Below, piece by piece: positions 45,048-51,897 of a stretch of DNA of 64,000 bases (positions within the stretch are counted from its first letter, which is position 1; each line of letters starts with the position of its first letter). The DNA lies in contig NZ_JBFNQN010000004.1 of the NCBI RefSeq assembly GCF_040796495.1, forward strand, positions 186,001 to 250,000. The letters are read 5' to 3'. Position numbers and translations under genes: made by a program. The DNA is from Kineococcus endophyticus. GTDB lineage: Bacteria; Actinomycetota; Actinomycetes; Actinomycetales; Kineococcaceae. Under the pieces are notes generated by a model, which worked only from the letters and a program-made list of their open reading frames with translations, searched no databases and had not been told where the DNA came from.

Positions 45048-47294
45048 TCAGGCGCCGTCGACCGTCAGGAGCTCCGGCACCGGGTAGACGCGGGCCAGCT
45101 GCTCACCGAGGAGTTCGCGGGGGACGGCGGGGGAGTACAACCAGCCCTGGCCCAGGGGGGCGGCGATGAACCGGCAGATCGCGGCCTGCTGCTCGGTCTC
45201 CACGCCCTCGACGACGACGGTCAGCCCGAGCCGCGTCGCGAGGTCCACGACGCACGTCACGACGGACTGGCCGTTGACGTCGTCGGTGATCGACTGCGTG
45301 AGGGACCGGTCGATCTTCAGGACGTGGACGGGCAGGCGGCCGAGGTACCCGAACGCCGAGTACCCCGTCCCGAAGTCGTCGATGGCGATCTGGCAGCCGA
45401 GGCCGGCGAGTTCGGTGACGACGCGTTCGGCGGGGGAGTCCTCGTCCAGGAACACCGACTCGGTGAGTTCGAGCGTCAGCAGGTGAGGGGCGATCCGGTA
45501 CTGCTCGACGAGCTCGACGACGATGTCCGCGAAACCGGGGGACTGCAGCTGCACGACGGAGACGTTGACGGCCACGCCGACACCGACGGAGAACACCCCG
45601 GCCTCGTAGGCCGAGCGGACGGCCGAGCGCAGGACGTGCTCGCCGAGGGCCACGACGAGGTTGGACTCCTCGGCGACCGCGATGAACTCGACCGGGGAGA
45701 TGCGGCCCAGGACGGGGTCCTCCCAGCGGGCGAGCGCCTCGAACTTCTCGACGCGGCCCGTCGTGAACGAGACGACGGGCTGGAAGTGCACGTCGACCTC
45801 CCCGCTGCGGACGGCCTGCGTGAGCCGGTCGCGCAGCAGGCTGCGGCGGGCGTGCTCGGCGGCCACGGACCCGGTGAAGACCGAGATGGAACCCGGCCCG
45901 AGGTGCTTGGCGTCGCGCAGGGCGATGTCGGCCTGCACGAAGGGCTTCATGACGTCGGTGGGGTCGTAGTCGTCACCGAACGGGCAGCTCGCGACGCCCG
46001 CGGCGGCCGACAGCGGGAACCGCGCCGCGCCGGGAACCGTCGCGGGGGCCGTGGTGACGGCCGCGACGACGCGTTCGGCGTGGCGCAGGACCTGGGCGGG
46101 GTCGCCGGGGAGCACGACCGCGATCTCGTCGCCCGCGGTGCGGAACGCGTCGCCGCCGAGTTCCTCGGCGACCAGGCCCACCTCCCGGGCGGCCGCGGCG
46201 ATGACGGCGTCACCGGCGCTGACACCGAGGACGTCGTTGATGTCGTCGAGGCCGACGAGTTCGACGAGGACGAGGGAGGAGGCGCGGTCGGGTTCGGTGA
46301 GCGCGCGTTCCAGCAGGGCCCGGTTCCCGAGCCCGGTGAGGTTGTCGTGCAGCGCCTGGAACGTCAGGTGCGCGGTGGTCCGGTCGATGGAGCGCGCCGT
46401 CGCGGCGTGCCGGACGGTGAACGTCACCAGGACGGTGATGTACAGGCCGTACAGGACGGAGTCGCCGCGCGGGTCGATGACGAGCAGGACGAGGTCGATG
46501 AGCAGGATCGGCCCGGGGACCAGCGAGGCGATCTCGAGGCGGCGGGCAGCGCGTTGCGCGGCCTGTCCCCCGTGCCGGACGACGCCGTCGCGGGGCAGGC
46601 CCAGCAGGCCCACGGCCCCGCCGACCGCCGCCACGGCGCACGCCACGTACGCCACGACCGACTGGTGGTGGAAGCAGACGGCGGCGAGCGCCGTCCCGAC
46701 GCCGTTCACGGTGAGGCCGGCGGCGGCGACGCGCAGCCGCGGCTGCTCGACGGCCAGCGCGATGGCCGAGCAGGCGACGAGGGAGCTCACGACCAGCACG
46801 AGGACGACCGCCGCCGTCCAGCCCGCCGGTCCGTGGTGGCCCGTGCGCGCGAAGGCGTCCCAGCCGGCGGTGGCCAGGGCGCTGCCGAGCATGAGGGCGT
46901 CGACGACCAGCGGCGGGTCGTCGCTGCCCGCGCGGGCGCGCACCAGCAGCTGCAGCAGCACGACGAGCAGGCCCAGACCGGCGACGGCGAAGGCCAGCAG
47001 GGGCACCGGGAACGGCCCGAGGTCCGTCCCGGGGAAGAGGCCCGCGGTGAGGGCGCCGAGACCCCACAGCATCGCGGCGCCGAGGTACTTGTGGGAGTTG
47101 TGGCCCTTGTACAGGACGATCAGCGCCAGGGCCGCGGCCGTGATCGCCGCGGCGCCGATCGCCACGAGGGGCGTCCGCACCACGCCGGGCAGCGCGACGG
47201 CCAGCGCCGTCAGCGCGCCCGCGAGCGCCAGCATGGCCAGACCGCCGACGACGCGACCCGGCGTGGGGCGCGTCGGGGCGAGCGGGGAGGCCAT
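45048..47294 (-). CDS. Membrane protein with degenerate GGDEF and intact EAL domain
   Basis: 748 residues. About eight membrane helices (15-300). The GGDEF region is degenerate: the loop reads AGDEI (RTAGDEIAVVLP), so cyclase activity is unlikely, though GTP binding may remain. The EAL domain has FEALARWE, NVSVVQL, LTLELTES, AIDDFGTGYSAF, LKIDRS and VVEGVE, consistent with an active phosphodiesterase. ATG 47294 is the simplest start; in-frame GTG 47333 is possible. It is a close paralogue of the protein at 49436-51664. Confidence 0.88.
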   Translation of the reverse strand: MASPLAPTRPTPGRVVGGLAMLALAGALTALAVALPGVVRTPLVAIGAAAITAAALALIVLYKGHNSHKYLGAAMLWGLGALTAGLFPGTDLGPFPVPLLAFAVAGLGLLVVLLQLLVRARAGSDDPPLVVDALMLGSALATAGWDAFARTGHHGPAGWTAAVVLVLVVSSLVACSAIALAVEQPRLRVAAAGLTVNGVGTALAAVCFHHQSVVAYVACAVAAVGGAVGLLGLPRDGVVRHGGQAAQRAARRLEIASLVPGPILLIDLVLLVIDPRGDSVLYGLYITVLVTFTVRHAATARSIDRTTAHLTFQALHDNLTGLGNRALLERALTEPDRASSLVLVELVGLDDINDVLGVSAGDAVIAAAAREVGLVAEELGGDAFRTAGDEIAVVLPGDPAQVLRHAERVVAAVTTAPATVPGAARFPLSAAAGVASCPFGDDYDPTDVMKPFVQADIALRDAKHLGPGSISVFTGSVAAEHARRSLLRDRLTQAVRSGEVDVHFQPVVSFTTGRVEKFEALARWEDPVLGRISPVEFIAVAEESNLVVALGEHVLRSAVRSAYEAGVFSVGVGVAVNVSVVQLQSPGFADIVVELVEQYRIAPHLLTLELTESVFLDEDSPAERVVTELAGLGCQIAIDDFGTGYSAFGYLGRLPVHVLKIDRSLTQSITDDVNGQSVVTCVVDLATRLGLTVVVEGVETEQQAAICRFIAAPLGQGWLYSPAVPRELLGEQLARVYPVPELLTVDGA

Positions 47295-47393: not shown

Positions 47394-47804
47394 GTGGCCA
47401 AGGGCAAGGTCCGTTCGTACGACGAGGAGCGCGGGTTCGGCTTCATCCGGAGCCCCGAAGCGCCGGACGACGTCTTCTTCCACTTCAAGGACATCGTCGG
47501 CGGCGCCGAGGACGGCTCCCTCGAGGGTGCGGTCGTCGAGTTCACCCTCGGTGAGGGCGAGCGCGGCCCGAAGGCCTCCGATGTGAAGGTGGAATCCCGC
47601 CGCAGCGGCCCGCCGCCGGAGCAGCGCCGCCCCGCGGCCTCGAACTCCCAGCGTCCCGTGTCGCTGCGCGAGTTCCGCCGCGAGGTGACCGAGATCCTGC
47701 TGAGCGTCGACGGGATCGGGTCCTCCCAGATCCGCGCCGTGCGCGACTTCCTGTCCGACTACGGCCTGGACCGTGGGTTCGTGGTGGAGGACACCCGCCG
47801 CTGA
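47394..47804 (+). CDS. Cold-shock-domain protein with C-terminal extension
   Basis: 136 residues. The cold-shock domain (1-70) begins VAKGKVRSYDEERGFGFI with RNP1 (GFGFI) and RNP2 (VFFHF) motifs for single-stranded RNA/DNA binding. Residues 70-136 add a charged linker and a helical domain (EFRREVTEILLSVDGIG), as in the longer actinobacterial proteins. GTG 47394 starts at the domain; GTG 47382 is in frame upstream. It is divergent from the GGDEF-EAL gene and ends inside the left palindrome of the next locus. Confidence 0.9.
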   Translation: MAKGKVRSYDEERGFGFIRSPEAPDDVFFHFKDIVGGAEDGSLEGAVVEFTLGEGERGPKASDVKVESRRSGPPPEQRRPAASNSQRPVSLREFRREVTEILLSVDGIGSSQIRAVRDFLSDYGLDRGFVVEDTRR

Positions 47805-47857
47805 TGTGCTGCGTTCCGACACCTCCGCAGCGTCGCGGGGTGTCGGAACGTCACACA
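47805..47857. repeat. Palindromic hairpin, left of the nuclease-like gene
   Basis: A perfect 12-bp stem CGTTCCGACACC (47812-47823) and GGTGTCGGAACG (47839-47850) with a 15-base loop, extended beyond a 3x3 internal loop by TGTG/CACA. It starts right after the cold-shock stop and the converging gene's stop codon (47851-47853) lies in its right arm, so it may also act as a terminator. The same 12-bp arms recur at 48820-48880. Confidence 0.85.
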
Positions 47858-48765
47858 CGGGCGACGTGCCAGCGCCGCGGCCCGGTGGTCGCCAGCCCGC
47901 GGCGGTGAGCGTCCTGGAGGCGGTGCACGGTGCGGCGCCGGTGGGCCGGACGGGTGTCGATCGCGGTGAACCGGGCGATGACGAGCCCGTGACGTTCCAG
48001 TCCCTCCTGGCGCACGTTGTCCACCGTCGCCACCTCCAACGCGAGGTGGCCGCGCCCGTCGTACTCGCCGGCCAGACCCGCCTCCTCGTCCAGCAGGTCG
48101 ACGCGGCCCAGGTGCCCTCCTTCCTCGTCCACGACGCGCTCGTTGACGAGCGGACGCGGAAGGCCGGCGTCGAGGGTCCAGATCATGCGCAGCTCCGTCT
48201 CCTGCGGGGAGCGGACACCGGCCGCCGCCAGCTCGGCGGCGCGGCGGGCCACCGGGGTGCCGCGCAGGCGTCGTTCGTCGAGGTGCGCGAGGACGGCGGG
48301 TCCGGTGGTGGCGCCCGCGGCCCACAGCGCGTCGACGGCGATGACGCCCCGTCGGGGCTCTCCGCTGAGACGGGCCAGGTCGACGGCGGTGCGCACGGCG
48401 CTCGTCACCGGGACGCCACGGACGACGGTCACCTCCTCGGTGGCCAGGTCCGAGCGCAGGACCCGCAGGCCGGGGCGGGGTCGCACCGACCTCGTCCTGG
48501 GCACGCACACGAGGACCGGGAGCTCACCGTCGCGCCCCACCCCGTCGAGGTCGCGGGCCCCGTGCCACCAGGCGGCGGCCCACCCGCCGACGGCGGCGCC
48601 CGGCGGCAGCAGCGGCACCACGTCGCGGATGCGGCGCTCGACGCTCGGCGGGATCGAAGCGTCGGCGTGCACTCCGCGGAACGGGGAGCGGTAGGCGCTG
48701 GCCCGCAGCTGTCCGTCCGTGACGCCGAGAGCTCGAAGCGTGGCGCGGCGGGCGGCGTCTGGCAC
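47851..48765 (-). CDS. DUF559-type nuclease-like protein with AbiEi-like N-terminus
   Basis: 304 residues. The N-terminal about 75 residues (ARRATLRALGVTDGQLRAS, YRSPFRGVHA) look like the winged-helix region of AbiEi-type antitoxin relatives. The C-terminal region (200-290) carries a PD-(D/E)xK-like set: Glu in SPQETELRM, Asp in GRVDLLDEE and the pair in GEYDGRGH, as in DUF559/Vsr-fold nucleases. GTG 48765 chosen. The gene is bracketed by two hairpins with identical 12-bp arms, one overlapping its stop and one 55 bases upstream of its start. Activity is inferred from motifs only. Confidence 0.78.
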   Translation of the reverse strand: MPDAARRATLRALGVTDGQLRASAYRSPFRGVHADASIPPSVERRIRDVVPLLPPGAAVGGWAAAWWHGARDLDGVGRDGELPVLVCVPRTRSVRPRPGLRVLRSDLATEEVTVVRGVPVTSAVRTAVDLARLSGEPRRGVIAVDALWAAGATTGPAVLAHLDERRLRGTPVARRAAELAAAGVRSPQETELRMIWTLDAGLPRPLVNERVVDEEGGHLGRVDLLDEEAGLAGEYDGRGHLALEVATVDNVRQEGLERHGLVIARFTAIDTRPAHRRRTVHRLQDAHRRGLATTGPRRWHVARV

Positions 48766-48819
48766 GGGCGCAGCCTGTCCCAGCCGGTGGGCGTCACGCT
48801 CCGTCCCTGTGGAGCACTT

Positions 48820-48880
48820 CCACTGCGGTGCGTTCCGACACCCTGACGGTCGATCGAGGTGTCGGAACGTCGCGCAGTGG
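48820..48880. repeat. Palindromic hairpin, right of the nuclease-like gene
   Basis: Inner arms identical to the left copy (CGTTCCGACACC 48831-48842, GGTGTCGGAACG 48858-48869), a 15-base loop of unrelated sequence, a 4x4 internal loop and outer arms CCACTGC/GCAGTGG. The outer arms differ from those of the left copy yet still pair. It lies in a divergent promoter region, upstream of both flanking genes, so a terminator role does not fit. Confidence 0.85.
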
Positions 48881-48904: not shown

Positions 48905-49432
48905 GTGACCACGTTCACCGCCTGCCACACCGCCGACCTGTCCGCCGCCACCCGCACCGAGCTGCGCGCCCTCCTGGACGCCGCGTTCGGGGACTTCACC
49001 GACGAGGACTTCGAGCACGGCCTCGGCGGGTGGCACGTCCTGGCCCACGACGACGGCGTGCTCGTCGGGCACGGGGCGGTCGTGCGGCGGCAGTTCCTCG
49101 TGGGTGGGCGGGCGCTGCCCGTCGGGTACGTCGAGAACGTCGCGGTGGCCGCCTCGCACCGCCGACGCGGGGTGGCGTCGGAGGTCATGGGCGAGCTGGA
49201 GCGGGTCGTCGTCGCCGGGCACGGGGCGGGGTTCCTCGCCGCGTCCGAGGAGGGTGCCCCGCTGTACGAGCGGCGGTGGCGGGTGTGGCGCGGTCCGCTG
49301 TCGGTGCTGACCGTCACCGGCGCGCAGCGCACCCCGGACGAGGACGGGGGCGTCCGCGTCCTGGACCCCGCCGGGACGTGGGACGTGGACCAGGAGCTGG
49401 TGTGCGAGTGGCGCTCCGGGGACGTCTGGTGA
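48905..49432 (+). CDS. AAC(2')-type aminoglycoside N-acetyltransferase (GNAT)
   Basis: 175 residues of the GNAT fold closely patterned on mycobacterial AAC(2')-I: HTADLSAATRTELRALLDAAFGDF-like start, YVENVAVAASHRRRGVAS (acetyl-CoA loop) near 82, and the C-terminal ending CEWRSGDVW, nearly the AAC(2')-Ic ending. It would acetylate aminoglycosides, though chromosomal family members may have cell-wall substrates. GTG 48905 lies 24 bases after the right hairpin. Convergent with the GGDEF-EAL gene with 3 bases between stops. Confidence 0.85.
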   Translation: MTTFTACHTADLSAATRTELRALLDAAFGDFTDEDFEHGLGGWHVLAHDDGVLVGHGAVVRRQFLVGGRALPVGYVENVAVAASHRRRGVASEVMGELERVVVAGHGAGFLAASEEGAPLYERRWRVWRGPLSVLTVTGAQRTPDEDGGVRVLDPAGTWDVDQELVCEWRSGDVW

Positions 49433-49435
49433 TGC

Positions 49436-51664
49436 TCAGCGGACGGCTTCGGGGGAGACGGGGTACTCCCGCTCGAGTTCGGAGATGATCCGGTCGGACG
49501 TGACGGCCGCGGAGTAGAGCCAGCCCTGGCCCAGGCCCGCGCGCATCGAGCGGCAGATCGCGGCCTCCTCGTCGGTCTCGACGCCCTCGACGACGACGGT
49601 GAGCCCGAGGTTGTTCGCGAGGTCGACGACGGCGGTGACGACGGAGCGCCCGTTGCCCTCGCCGGTGAGCGACTGCGTGAGGGAGCGGTCGATCTTCAGC
49701 ACGTGGACGGGCAGGCGGTCGAGGTAGCCGAACGCCGAGTAGCCCGTGCCGAAGTCGTCGATGGCGATCTGGCAGCCGAGGCGCGCGAGTTCGGTGACGA
49801 CGCGCTCGGCGGGGGAGTCGGAGTCGAGGAACACCGACTCGGTCAGCTCCAGGGTCAGCAGGTGGGCCGAGATGCGGTAGCCCGAGAGGATCTCGCGCAC
49901 GACCTCGGCGAAGCCCGGCGACTGCAGCTGCACGACGGAGACGTTGACGGCGAGGCGGACCTCGGCGTCGAAGACCCCGGCTGCGTGCGCGGTGCTGACG
50001 GCGCGGCGCAGGACGTGCTCGCCCAGGGCGACGACGAGGTTGGACTCCTCGGCGACGGCGACGAACTCGACGGGGGAGACGCGGCCGAGCTCGCGGTCGT
50101 CCCAGCGGGCCAGGGCCTCGAACTTCACGACCCGGCCGGTGGTGAAGTCGACGATCGGCTGGAAGTGGACGTCGATGCAGCCCTCGGCGACGGCGGACGC
50201 CAGGCGCTCGCGGACGAGAAGGCGGCGGGCGTGCTGGGCGGCGACGGCGCCGGAGTACACCGACCAGCCCAGGAGGCCGGGGTTGCTGCGGGCGTCGCGC
50301 AGGGCGAGGTCGGCGTGGACGAGCGGCAGGGTCGCGTCACCGGCGGCGCGGGCCCCCGGGTCGACGCGGGCGACACCGGCCACGGCCGCGACGGGGAAGC
50401 GCCCGGCGCCGGGGACCTGCAGCGGGGCGGCGCTGACGGCGGCGAGGACGTGCGGGAGGTGGCGGACGGACTCATCGGGGCTGCCCGGCAGGAGTACGGC
50501 GAACTCGTCGTGGCGGACGCGGTAGGTGGTGCCGTCGAGGGGCGTGACGTGCTCGCGCAGGTTGGCGGCGGCGGCGCGCAGGACGTCCTCGCCGACGGCG
50601 ACGCCGAGGACGTCGGTGACGTCGTCGAGGCCGCTGACCTCGAGGATGACGAGCGACTGGGTGCGGTCGGGTTCGACGAGGGCGTCGGCTAGTGCCGTCC
50701 GGTTCTGCAGGCCGGTGAGCGGGTCGTGCTGGGCCTGGAAGGACAGCGTCTGGCGGGTGCGGTCGATGGCGCGGGCGGTGGCCGCCTGGCGGACGGCGGC
50801 CGCGACGATCGCCGCGCCGTAGTAGGCCGAGAGGAGGCCGTCGACGCGGGGGTCGACGGTGTTCACGGCGATGTCGAGGAGCATCGCCGCCCCGGGCAGC
50901 GTCACGGCCAGGCGGAGCCGGCGCGCGGCCTGCGTGACGGCCACCCCGCCGTGGCGGACGAACCCGCCGCGCGGCTGGAAGACGAGCAGCAGCAGGCCGC
51001 CGACGAGGGCGAGGAGGACGGCGACGTCCGCGGCGCGGGGGGAGTGCGCCGCCGTGACGGCCGTGACCTCGGTGGCGACGGCCGCGAGCCCGAGCCCGAA
51101 GCAGGCCAGTCGCAGGGCGCCGTGCTCGACGGCCAGGACGACGGCGGACGCTGCCACGAAGGACGCGATGAGCACCACGAGCGAGGCGCTCGCCTGCCAC
51201 CAGCCGTCGCCGACGTGGCCGGTACGGCCGAAGACGTCCCACGACAGGGCGGCCATGACGGTGGCGAAGAGGGACGCCTCGACGAGCAGGGGCTGGTCGT
51301 CGCCTGCGACGCGGGCGTGCCGGAGCTGCTGGAACGCGATGTACGCCAGACCGGCCAGCGAGACCGCGTGCGCCAGGTGCGGGAACGGCACCGGCCCGAC
51401 CGTCGCGGTGGGGAAGGCGCCGGCCAGGACCGTGCCGGCGCCCCAGAGCGTGGCGGAGGCGGTGAAGCGGACGACGCCGCTGCGGGTGCCCTTGAGGGCG
51501 AGGAAGGGCATGAGCACGGTGACGGCCAGCCAGCCGAGGCCGGTCGCGAGGAGGACCGGGCGCCCGTCGTGCCAGTGCTCGGACGCAGCCACCAGCAGCG
51601 GGGCGGACACGACGAGCACGGCGGCCGAGAGGGCCGCCCGCCAGGCGTGCTGGTGAAACGTCAT
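49436..51664 (-). CDS. Membrane protein with degenerate GGDEF and intact EAL domain (paralogue)
   Basis: 742 residues with the same layout as the protein at 45048-47294: about eight membrane helices, a degenerate GGDEF whose loop reads RHDEF (YRVRHDEFAVLL), and an EAL domain with FEALARWD, NVSVVQL, LTLELTES, AIDDFGTGYSAF, LKIDRS and VVEGVE. Long blocks are identical between the two, so they arose by duplication. Expected to be a phosphodiesterase or c-di-GMP effector. ATG 51664; upstream frame is non-homologous. It faces the S-layer gene across 516 bases. Confidence 0.88.
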   Translation of the reverse strand: MTFHQHAWRAALSAAVLVVSAPLLVAASEHWHDGRPVLLATGLGWLAVTVLMPFLALKGTRSGVVRFTASATLWGAGTVLAGAFPTATVGPVPFPHLAHAVSLAGLAYIAFQQLRHARVAGDDQPLLVEASLFATVMAALSWDVFGRTGHVGDGWWQASASLVVLIASFVAASAVVLAVEHGALRLACFGLGLAAVATEVTAVTAAHSPRAADVAVLLALVGGLLLLVFQPRGGFVRHGGVAVTQAARRLRLAVTLPGAAMLLDIAVNTVDPRVDGLLSAYYGAAIVAAAVRQAATARAIDRTRQTLSFQAQHDPLTGLQNRTALADALVEPDRTQSLVILEVSGLDDVTDVLGVAVGEDVLRAAAANLREHVTPLDGTTYRVRHDEFAVLLPGSPDESVRHLPHVLAAVSAAPLQVPGAGRFPVAAVAGVARVDPGARAAGDATLPLVHADLALRDARSNPGLLGWSVYSGAVAAQHARRLLVRERLASAVAEGCIDVHFQPIVDFTTGRVVKFEALARWDDRELGRVSPVEFVAVAEESNLVVALGEHVLRRAVSTAHAAGVFDAEVRLAVNVSVVQLQSPGFAEVVREILSGYRISAHLLTLELTESVFLDSDSPAERVVTELARLGCQIAIDDFGTGYSAFGYLDRLPVHVLKIDRSLTQSLTGEGNGRSVVTAVVDLANNLGLTVVVEGVETDEEAAICRSMRAGLGQGWLYSAAVTSDRIISELEREYPVSPEAVR

Positions 51665-51897
51665 GGCCAGGGGTTCGACGGGCCGGTCCACCCGCTGGAT
51701 CGCCCGACTGCGTGACACCCGGTCCCGTTGGGCCGGACCCCGAGGGAGCCAAGCCAAGATCGCCGACGTCACAGAGCGCGACGACCACCCGTTGGGGTCA
51801 GCAGAGCATGGTCCGAAGAGGGTCACCCACATGAGCCACAGAGCGTCATGGTTCGTGCGTGGGTGGTGACCCCATCCCGTGTGACTACTCCAGATGG

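Follow-up and report, generated by a model that had tools for sequence, protein, structure and literature searches.

Sequence-matched palindromes private to the genes of a predicted AbiEi-like/Vsr-like nuclease family in Actinobacteria

The window analyzed here, a 64,000-nucleotide stretch of a Kineococcus endophyticus contig (NZ_JBFNQN010000004.1, positions 186,001 to 250,000), contained a minus-strand gene at 47851..48765 for an AbiEi-like/Vsr-like (EDxHD-type) nuclease of 304 amino acids, with GTG at 48765 as the presumed start codon and a TGA stop codon at 47853-47851. The gene was situated between two plus-strand neighbors, a cold-shock domain gene (47394..47804) and a GNAT acetyltransferase gene (48905..49432), and was bracketed by two palindromes without assigned strand, a 3' copy with an imperfect span of 47796..47866 (core, 47812-47850) and a 5' copy with a 61-nt imperfect span of 48820..48880 (core, 48831-48869). 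Both cores had the form CGTTCCGACACC-N15-GGTGTCGGAACG, with perfect 12-bp arms that were identical in the two copies. As an earlier note on this DNA had described for its two matching hairpins, the 15-base loops were unlike each other, and the outer stems differed (TGTG/CACA versus CCACTGC/GCAGTGG) but both paired. The 3' core abutted the nuclease stop codon, where the cold-shock and nuclease genes converge, and the 5' copy lay where the nuclease and GNAT genes diverge, which agrees with the earlier placement of the right-hand hairpin in a divergent promoter region. A minus-strand TCCACAG motif (48807..48813), which we take to be DnaA-box-like, was present between the 5' palindrome and the nuclease start codon. 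The block of cold-shock, nuclease, and GNAT genes was itself enclosed by two minus-strand GGDEF-EAL genes (45051-47294 and 49439-51832), which were 58% identical over 676 columns.

The nuclease gene is real, to judge from homologs in the genus at 74, 56, and 44% identity and from a confident predicted fold. The structure predicted for the window protein (mean pLDDT, 92.5; 39-sequence alignment) consisted of two parts. Residues 186 to 292 aligned to the catalytic domain of I-Bth0305I (3r3p; Z, 12.4; 2.4 A; 95 aligned), residues 1 to 181 aligned to the antitoxin AbiEi (6y8q; Z, 7.5; 5.5 A; 167 aligned), and residues 1 to 201 aligned to the AbiEi relative Rv2827c (1zel; Z, 7.0; 4.8 A; 182 aligned), with the latter two Z values falling below 8, where by the comparison tool a mere common arrangement is possible, and being modest taken alone. 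A Foldseek search with the model returned zero matches at an E value of ≤0.001. The only Pfam match was to AbiEi_1, slightly under the cut-off, and PADLOC AbiEi models matched the protein with a best E value of 2.3e-9. Residues E189, D223, and D236 were invariant and E234 was near-invariant in the 39-sequence alignment, a pattern that fits a nuclease site and a predicted nuclease activity. The window protein is predicted to join an AbiEi-like DNA-binding region to a nuclease domain of the Vsr-like/EDxHD homing-endonuclease type. The gene had been called DUF559/Vsr-like in the earlier note; the Vsr-like fold was recovered, an assignment that rests on structure comparison, but the window protein was below the reach of the Pfam DUF559 model. 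Among other family members, the C-terminal domain scored to the MTES_1575/DUF559 models in 5 of 10 scanned proteins, nearly all sub-cut-off, and those models hold no function for this layout and nothing on palindromes. Y1 transposase was absent from the Pfam scan of 10 family proteins at an E value of ≤0.1.

Of 149 genomes from across the phylum, 78 contained relatives of the window gene, with at least 15 in one genome. A first set of loci comprised the genus homologs and 46 named loci from other actinobacteria, and the layout in many cases was a gene between matched flanks, with a palindrome sequence that differed by locus. When each upstream flank was compared with each downstream flank by best local match (threshold, 18), 38 of 56 loci in this set matched their own other flank, versus 5 of 448 mismatched pairs and 17 of 344 control intervals; L078 (contig edge), the repeats L010, L012, and L013, and one of 57 loci (short flanks) were left out. 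The second set, drawn from the phylum sample, contained one locus from each of 29 genomes, the best among the matches listed, with the window gene (L116) left out of this round, and own-flank matches were found at 17 of 29 loci versus 0 of 812 mismatched pairs. Flank matches were below threshold at 18 of 56 and 12 of 29 loci, respectively, and since the flank windows depend on estimated gene starts and stops, some real matches are hidden, such as that of L007. Within single genomes, 11 of 14 paralogs in G085 (14 of at least 15 matches) matched their own other side compared to 0 of 182 cross-pairs, and 3 of 6 paralogs in G131 (6 of 10 matches) did so compared to 2 of 30 mismatched pairs. Two loci (L122/L146 and L141/L160) each belong to two of the three sets (phylum, G085, and G131). 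Mismatched pairs are the better control, because the control windows of the flank and size tests were random and mostly coding. Matched flank sequence is private to each gene, and the association of palindrome and gene generalizes beyond the window, in support of part of the earlier note. Chance likeness of the flanks was rejected, chiefly because so few mismatched pairs reached the threshold. When the family loci analyzed were tested by k-mers for further copies, the count was 106 versus 20.5 expected, and 55 of the 106 came from one locus.

These comparisons also bear on whether the hairpins are ordinary bidirectional terminators, with an incidental likeness to each other. The position of the 3' window copy between convergent genes would suit a terminator, as would the predicted RNA folding of both copies, which was stable (-46.5 and -42.3 kcal/mol), and other congeners also had a hairpin (by eye) after the same cold-shock gene. 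A terminator has no evident place in a divergent promoter region, however, where the 5' copy is situated, nor does it account for side-to-side matching that is private to each gene even between paralogs of one genome (0/182). The terminator reading was rejected mainly on the mismatched-pair controls and is considered highly improbable.

Inverted repeats scoring above the control (95% point of 87 random control windows) were detected in 55 upstream and 44 downstream flanks among 103 loci, with windows of 600 bases for the control and 340 bases downstream. The median palindrome span was 63 nt, and 37 of 99 spans were between 60 and 69 nt. Tandem repeats upstream, with their reverse complement downstream, were present instead of single palindromes at some loci, such as those in Williamsia and Isoptericola. 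I-Bth0305I dimers are reported to use a target of nearly 60 bp (PMC3943268), and AbiEi-family sites are reported to consist of paired 23-bp inverted repeats with 3 or 13 bp between them (PMC7319586; PMC3985639); the match in size between these sites and the ~60-bp family palindrome is suggestive only.

Cross-flank scores of ≥18 were obtained for 5 of 8 locus pairs with at least 70% protein identity (4 of 8 without L006/L007, a pair that scores through the neighboring DNA of an inverted locus), 4 of 11 pairs at 60 to 70%, 5 of 88 pairs at 50 to 60%, and about 2% of pairs below that, and the overall correlation between protein identity and unit sharing was weak (Spearman, 0.16). L003, L116, L122, and L141 were left out of these analyses and of the size analyses. 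The palindrome-gene unit appears from these alignments to be common to loci only when the proteins are close, with sharing that fades below about 60% identity. Between L077 and L095, from Curtobacterium and another Microbacteriaceae member, the upstream DNA of one nuclease gene and the downstream DNA of its counterpart showed a reverse match, and this is possibly another inverted locus.

Homologs of the window gene in the genus amounted to 14 matches in 8 of 11 genomes, including those in G003 (74% identity) and G005 (56%). At the window locus, the nuclease gene of G003 was inverted and had palindromes of its own, and G001, G004, G005, and G009 had the cold-shock gene but no adjoining nuclease; the 56% homolog of G005 and its cold-shock gene were on separate contigs. 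A hairpin was seen by eye at the 3' end of the cold-shock gene in each of these four congeners examined. The earlier note had looked for empty sites with one palindrome, and the four congeners did provide loci without the nuclease; G001, with a single hairpin, was considered as such a site or a remnant and was rejected as not clean, because the hairpin arms were by eye unrelated to the window palindrome. Words like ACGTYCCG were common to the hairpins after the cold-shock gene in G003, G004, G005, and G009 (by eye).

Exact 12-base window arms with a loop of 8 to 30 nt were found at 2 places in the genome of the window (G000), both at the window locus, and exact 11-base arms with a loop of 6 to 32 nt were found in none of 10 congeners. 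The search of relatives for the palindrome that the earlier note had suggested was thus negative for the exact arms in these congeners; many relatives' genes were bracketed by palindromes of their own. At ≤3 mismatches and a fixed 15-nt loop, limits outside which more diverged copies would fall, the window type was found at 5 places in G000, 3 of them solo, and in none of three congeners, with a reversed-pattern control of 0. The palindrome type beside the 74%-identical gene of G003 was found in G003 and G000 only (2 of 11 genus genomes), with one solo copy in each, and at one solo site in G000 the window type and the G003 type were side by side. A related palindrome was found at 4 places in G009, with two of these following the cold-shock gene, and was absent from 5 other genomes searched. 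A second paralog in G000 (L017; G000:C1:282483-283211) was flanked on each side by inverted repeats whose arms, TGGGACCGG/CCGGTCCCA, differed from those of the window palindrome.

Solo copies with presence/absence differences occurred in other genera as well. Sanguibacter gelidistatuariae (G011) and Sanguibacter suarezii (G012) each contained 7 places of the GGTCGTCTAT palindrome with exact arms, 2 flanking the nuclease gene and 5 solo. The spacer inside the palindrome was TTTTGCTTGG in 6 of 7 G011 places and close to CAGGTGCGA in all 7 G012 places; copies, flanking and solo, are therefore alike within a species and different between species. One solo site was at the same place in both species, which favors change in place over new insertion there. 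Six of 7 G011 places, including both flanking ones, were no more than about 131 kb away from the nuclease gene (contig C17, 89873-221248), and solo copies may therefore spread locally.

The CGAGTGGCCA palindrome was found at 6 places in G085 (2 flanking the cognate gene and 4 solo) and at 2 places in G052 (one before the cognate gene and 1 solo) and was absent from two other genomes of that genus. All 8 copies were exactly 57 bases long in a search that let the gap vary by 45. According to ORF-based gene calls, 3 of the 4 solo copies in G085 were directly after a stop codon, between apparently convergent ORFs; the fourth reproduced the upstream module of the nuclease gene over 90 nt at 91% identity, and the ORF behind it had no detectable likeness to that gene. 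Orthologous loci were available for 2 of the 4 solo sites, each with 13 of 14 other genomes readable once L198 and L203, where the locus ended, were left out, and the own-type palindrome was present in 0 of 13 readable relatives at each, although relative L200 came close at the second site (score, 12.0; palindrome threshold, 13). At the 3' site orthologous to that of the G085 solo L171, two other species (L179 and L176) had ~60-base palindromes of a different kind after the gene, and that of L179 resembled by eye the unit beside the G085 paralog L157. A Cellulosimicrobium solo (L072) was compared with L076, in which the intergenic stretch is ~120 bases shorter, and was rejected as a candidate insertion, the junction being blurred.

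Matched ends, the inversion of the gene between G000 and G003 at the same locus, and a patchy presence in the genus, with the 56% homolog of G005 off the contig of its cold-shock gene, could be expected of a whole-unit mobile element, with the palindromes serving as terminal repeats and travelling together with the gene in the manner of an insertion sequence. Ordinary recombination between inverted repeats can also give an inversion, however, and 9 of 9 locus pairs with ≥69% protein identity in the first-set comparison shared flanking DNA, as vertical inheritance predicts. The most alike within-genome paralogs compared were 67% (G085) and 81% (G131) identical, and these pairs do not share the unit. 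With one genome per species, neither near-identical full copies of the gene and its palindromes nor, at junctions too diverged to read, target duplications or clean junctions were seen. No family relative was found in one scan of viral contigs, a weak negative because the alignment was reduced to a single conserved peptide pattern, and no match was found in phages or plasmids with the window protein as the sole query. Movement of the whole unit in this way is considered very unlikely. The mobile or self-targeting unit proposed in the earlier note is retained in part: the homing-endonuclease-type domain and the restriction of solo copies to genomes with the cognate gene, among the few relatives searched, are in keeping with it, and the results on target duplications, full copies, and viral or plasmid matches lend no support to whole-unit movement.

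From the pairing, its privacy to each gene, the two predicted folds, and the solo copies with their presence/absence differences, we infer protein binding, cutting, movement, and repair-driven copying. It is somewhat probable that each two-domain protein and its ~60-bp palindrome form a private pair, with binding as a dimer, probable cutting or nicking, and repair-driven copying and homogenization at a low rate. Two protein molecules would bind the two palindrome halves through their AbiEi-like regions, and the two bound Vsr/EDxHD-like nuclease domains would be placed near the variable center of the palindrome and would cut or nick there. Repair of the break from another copy would homogenize the copies within a genome (left flank, right flank, and solos) and may occasionally seed a new solo copy, often directly after a stop codon. 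Protein on the promoter-side palindrome would also regulate the nuclease gene. The low copy number of the palindromes weighs against this private-pair reading, as do the many loci with flank matches below threshold, the loss of unit sharing between more distant proteins, the negative Foldseek search, the AbiEi Z values under 8, and the failure to see target duplications or clean junctions.

Autoregulation is the main rival and may hold alongside the cutting model. The AbiEi-like region would repress its own gene through the 5' palindrome as an operator, the 3' copy would be a second operator or a roadblock/terminator, and the nuclease would have its target elsewhere, for example, in foreign DNA. 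Each of the two proteins AbiEi and Rv2827c is reported to bind inverted repeats of its own promoter and did not bind those of the other (PMC7319586; PMC3985639), and the operator reading stands for that reason. The N-terminal part of the window protein aligns to both of these proteins, and the 5' copy lies in a promoter region, where an AbiEi-type operator would sit. The TCCACAG motif was also in keeping with a regulatory region: in the first set, it was present upstream of 39 of 57 relatives versus 39 of 1,140 control windows, and of 33 of 55 loci versus 7 of 217 other long ORFs, and 18 of these 33 motif-bearing loci had it between -47 and -59 relative to the estimated start codon. The motif was present at 8 of 14 loci in G085, and it is not a defining part of the unit, because it was found at only 5 of 29 loci in the phylum set and 0 of 6 in G131. 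An operator needs no sequence-matched second copy after the stop codon, however, and solo copies near unrelated genes are left unexplained by autoregulation, which is considered fairly unlikely as the account of these palindromes.

The private-pair reading invites comparison with REP/RAYT (TnpA-REP, or REPtron) systems, in which two inverted palindromes are reported to enclose the gene in every case and to change along with it (PMC2817692; PMC8266576) and nonautonomous palindrome copies are found elsewhere, mostly downstream of coding regions (PMC2817692; PMC3733652). The window and many, though not all, relatives likewise have a single gene between two inverted palindromes, with nonautonomous copies elsewhere in the genome. 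Gene and palindrome may also change together, in that G000 and G003 each have their own palindrome type and the unit is common to 4 of 8 pairs at 70% or more identity, but the overall correlation is weak. The REP/RAYT enzyme is a Y1/HuH transposase, to which the AbiEi-Vsr-like enzyme is unrelated, and REP palindromes exceed 100 copies per genome, whereas 5 places were found in G000 and 7 each in G011 and G012. The family palindrome, with its ~60-bp span, is unlike REP, the GTAG or CGTC foot of REP was not seen by eye beside the two window copies, and the family is found in Actinobacteria, a word absent from the REP/RAYT text of PMC3733652. Given the unrelated enzyme, the low copy number found, and the absence of the GTAG foot from the window copies, the family is not a member of REP/RAYT.

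The EDxHD homing endonuclease I-Bth0305I is alike in the predicted fold of its catalytic domain (Z, 12.4), and its reported dimer on a nearly 60-bp target (PMC3943268) would correspond to a dimer on the ~60-bp palindrome here. A homing endonuclease gene splits its own target, whereas the window gene appears to be free-standing, with complete palindromes on both sides (the one hairpin at the gene-free G001 locus having unrelated arms), and the AbiEi-type binding region is a further difference. The AbiEi antitoxins (AbiE and Rv2827c) share the N-terminal structure match, the PADLOC AbiEi matches, and inverted-repeat sites of similar overall size but differ from the family in its C-terminal nuclease domain and in repeats that are also downstream; an AbiEii toxin gene was not found beside the window gene, whose two neighbors are the cold-shock and GNAT genes. 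The likeness to the MTES_1575/DUF559 families of Pfam is confined to the C-terminal domain of half of the 10 scanned proteins, with the window protein itself unmatched.

Literature searches, the coverage of which excluded subscription journals and most preprints, found no title or abstract with an account of an association between such palindromes and nucleases, and the accessible part of a stem-loop survey covering mycobacteria (PMC2267715) contained nothing on it. The results suggest a family, so far undescribed, whose nucleases evolve jointly with their recognition sites. It is possible, if somewhat short of probable, that this is a second, independently evolved REP-like class, in which private ~60-bp palindromes are maintained and spread in actinobacterial chromosomes by a nuclease of homing-endonuclease type that carries an AbiEi-type reader, with many mutually independent pairs per genome. 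If so, systems of a palindrome and its nuclease would have originated on at least two occasions, on the basis of unrelated enzymes, and a testable role could be assigned to a large group of actinobacterial genes, most of them unnamed. The family would also supply a range of naturally occurring DNA-reading nucleases, each paired with a ~60-bp site, and could account for hairpins that are found after actinobacterial genes in particular lineages and might otherwise pass for terminators.
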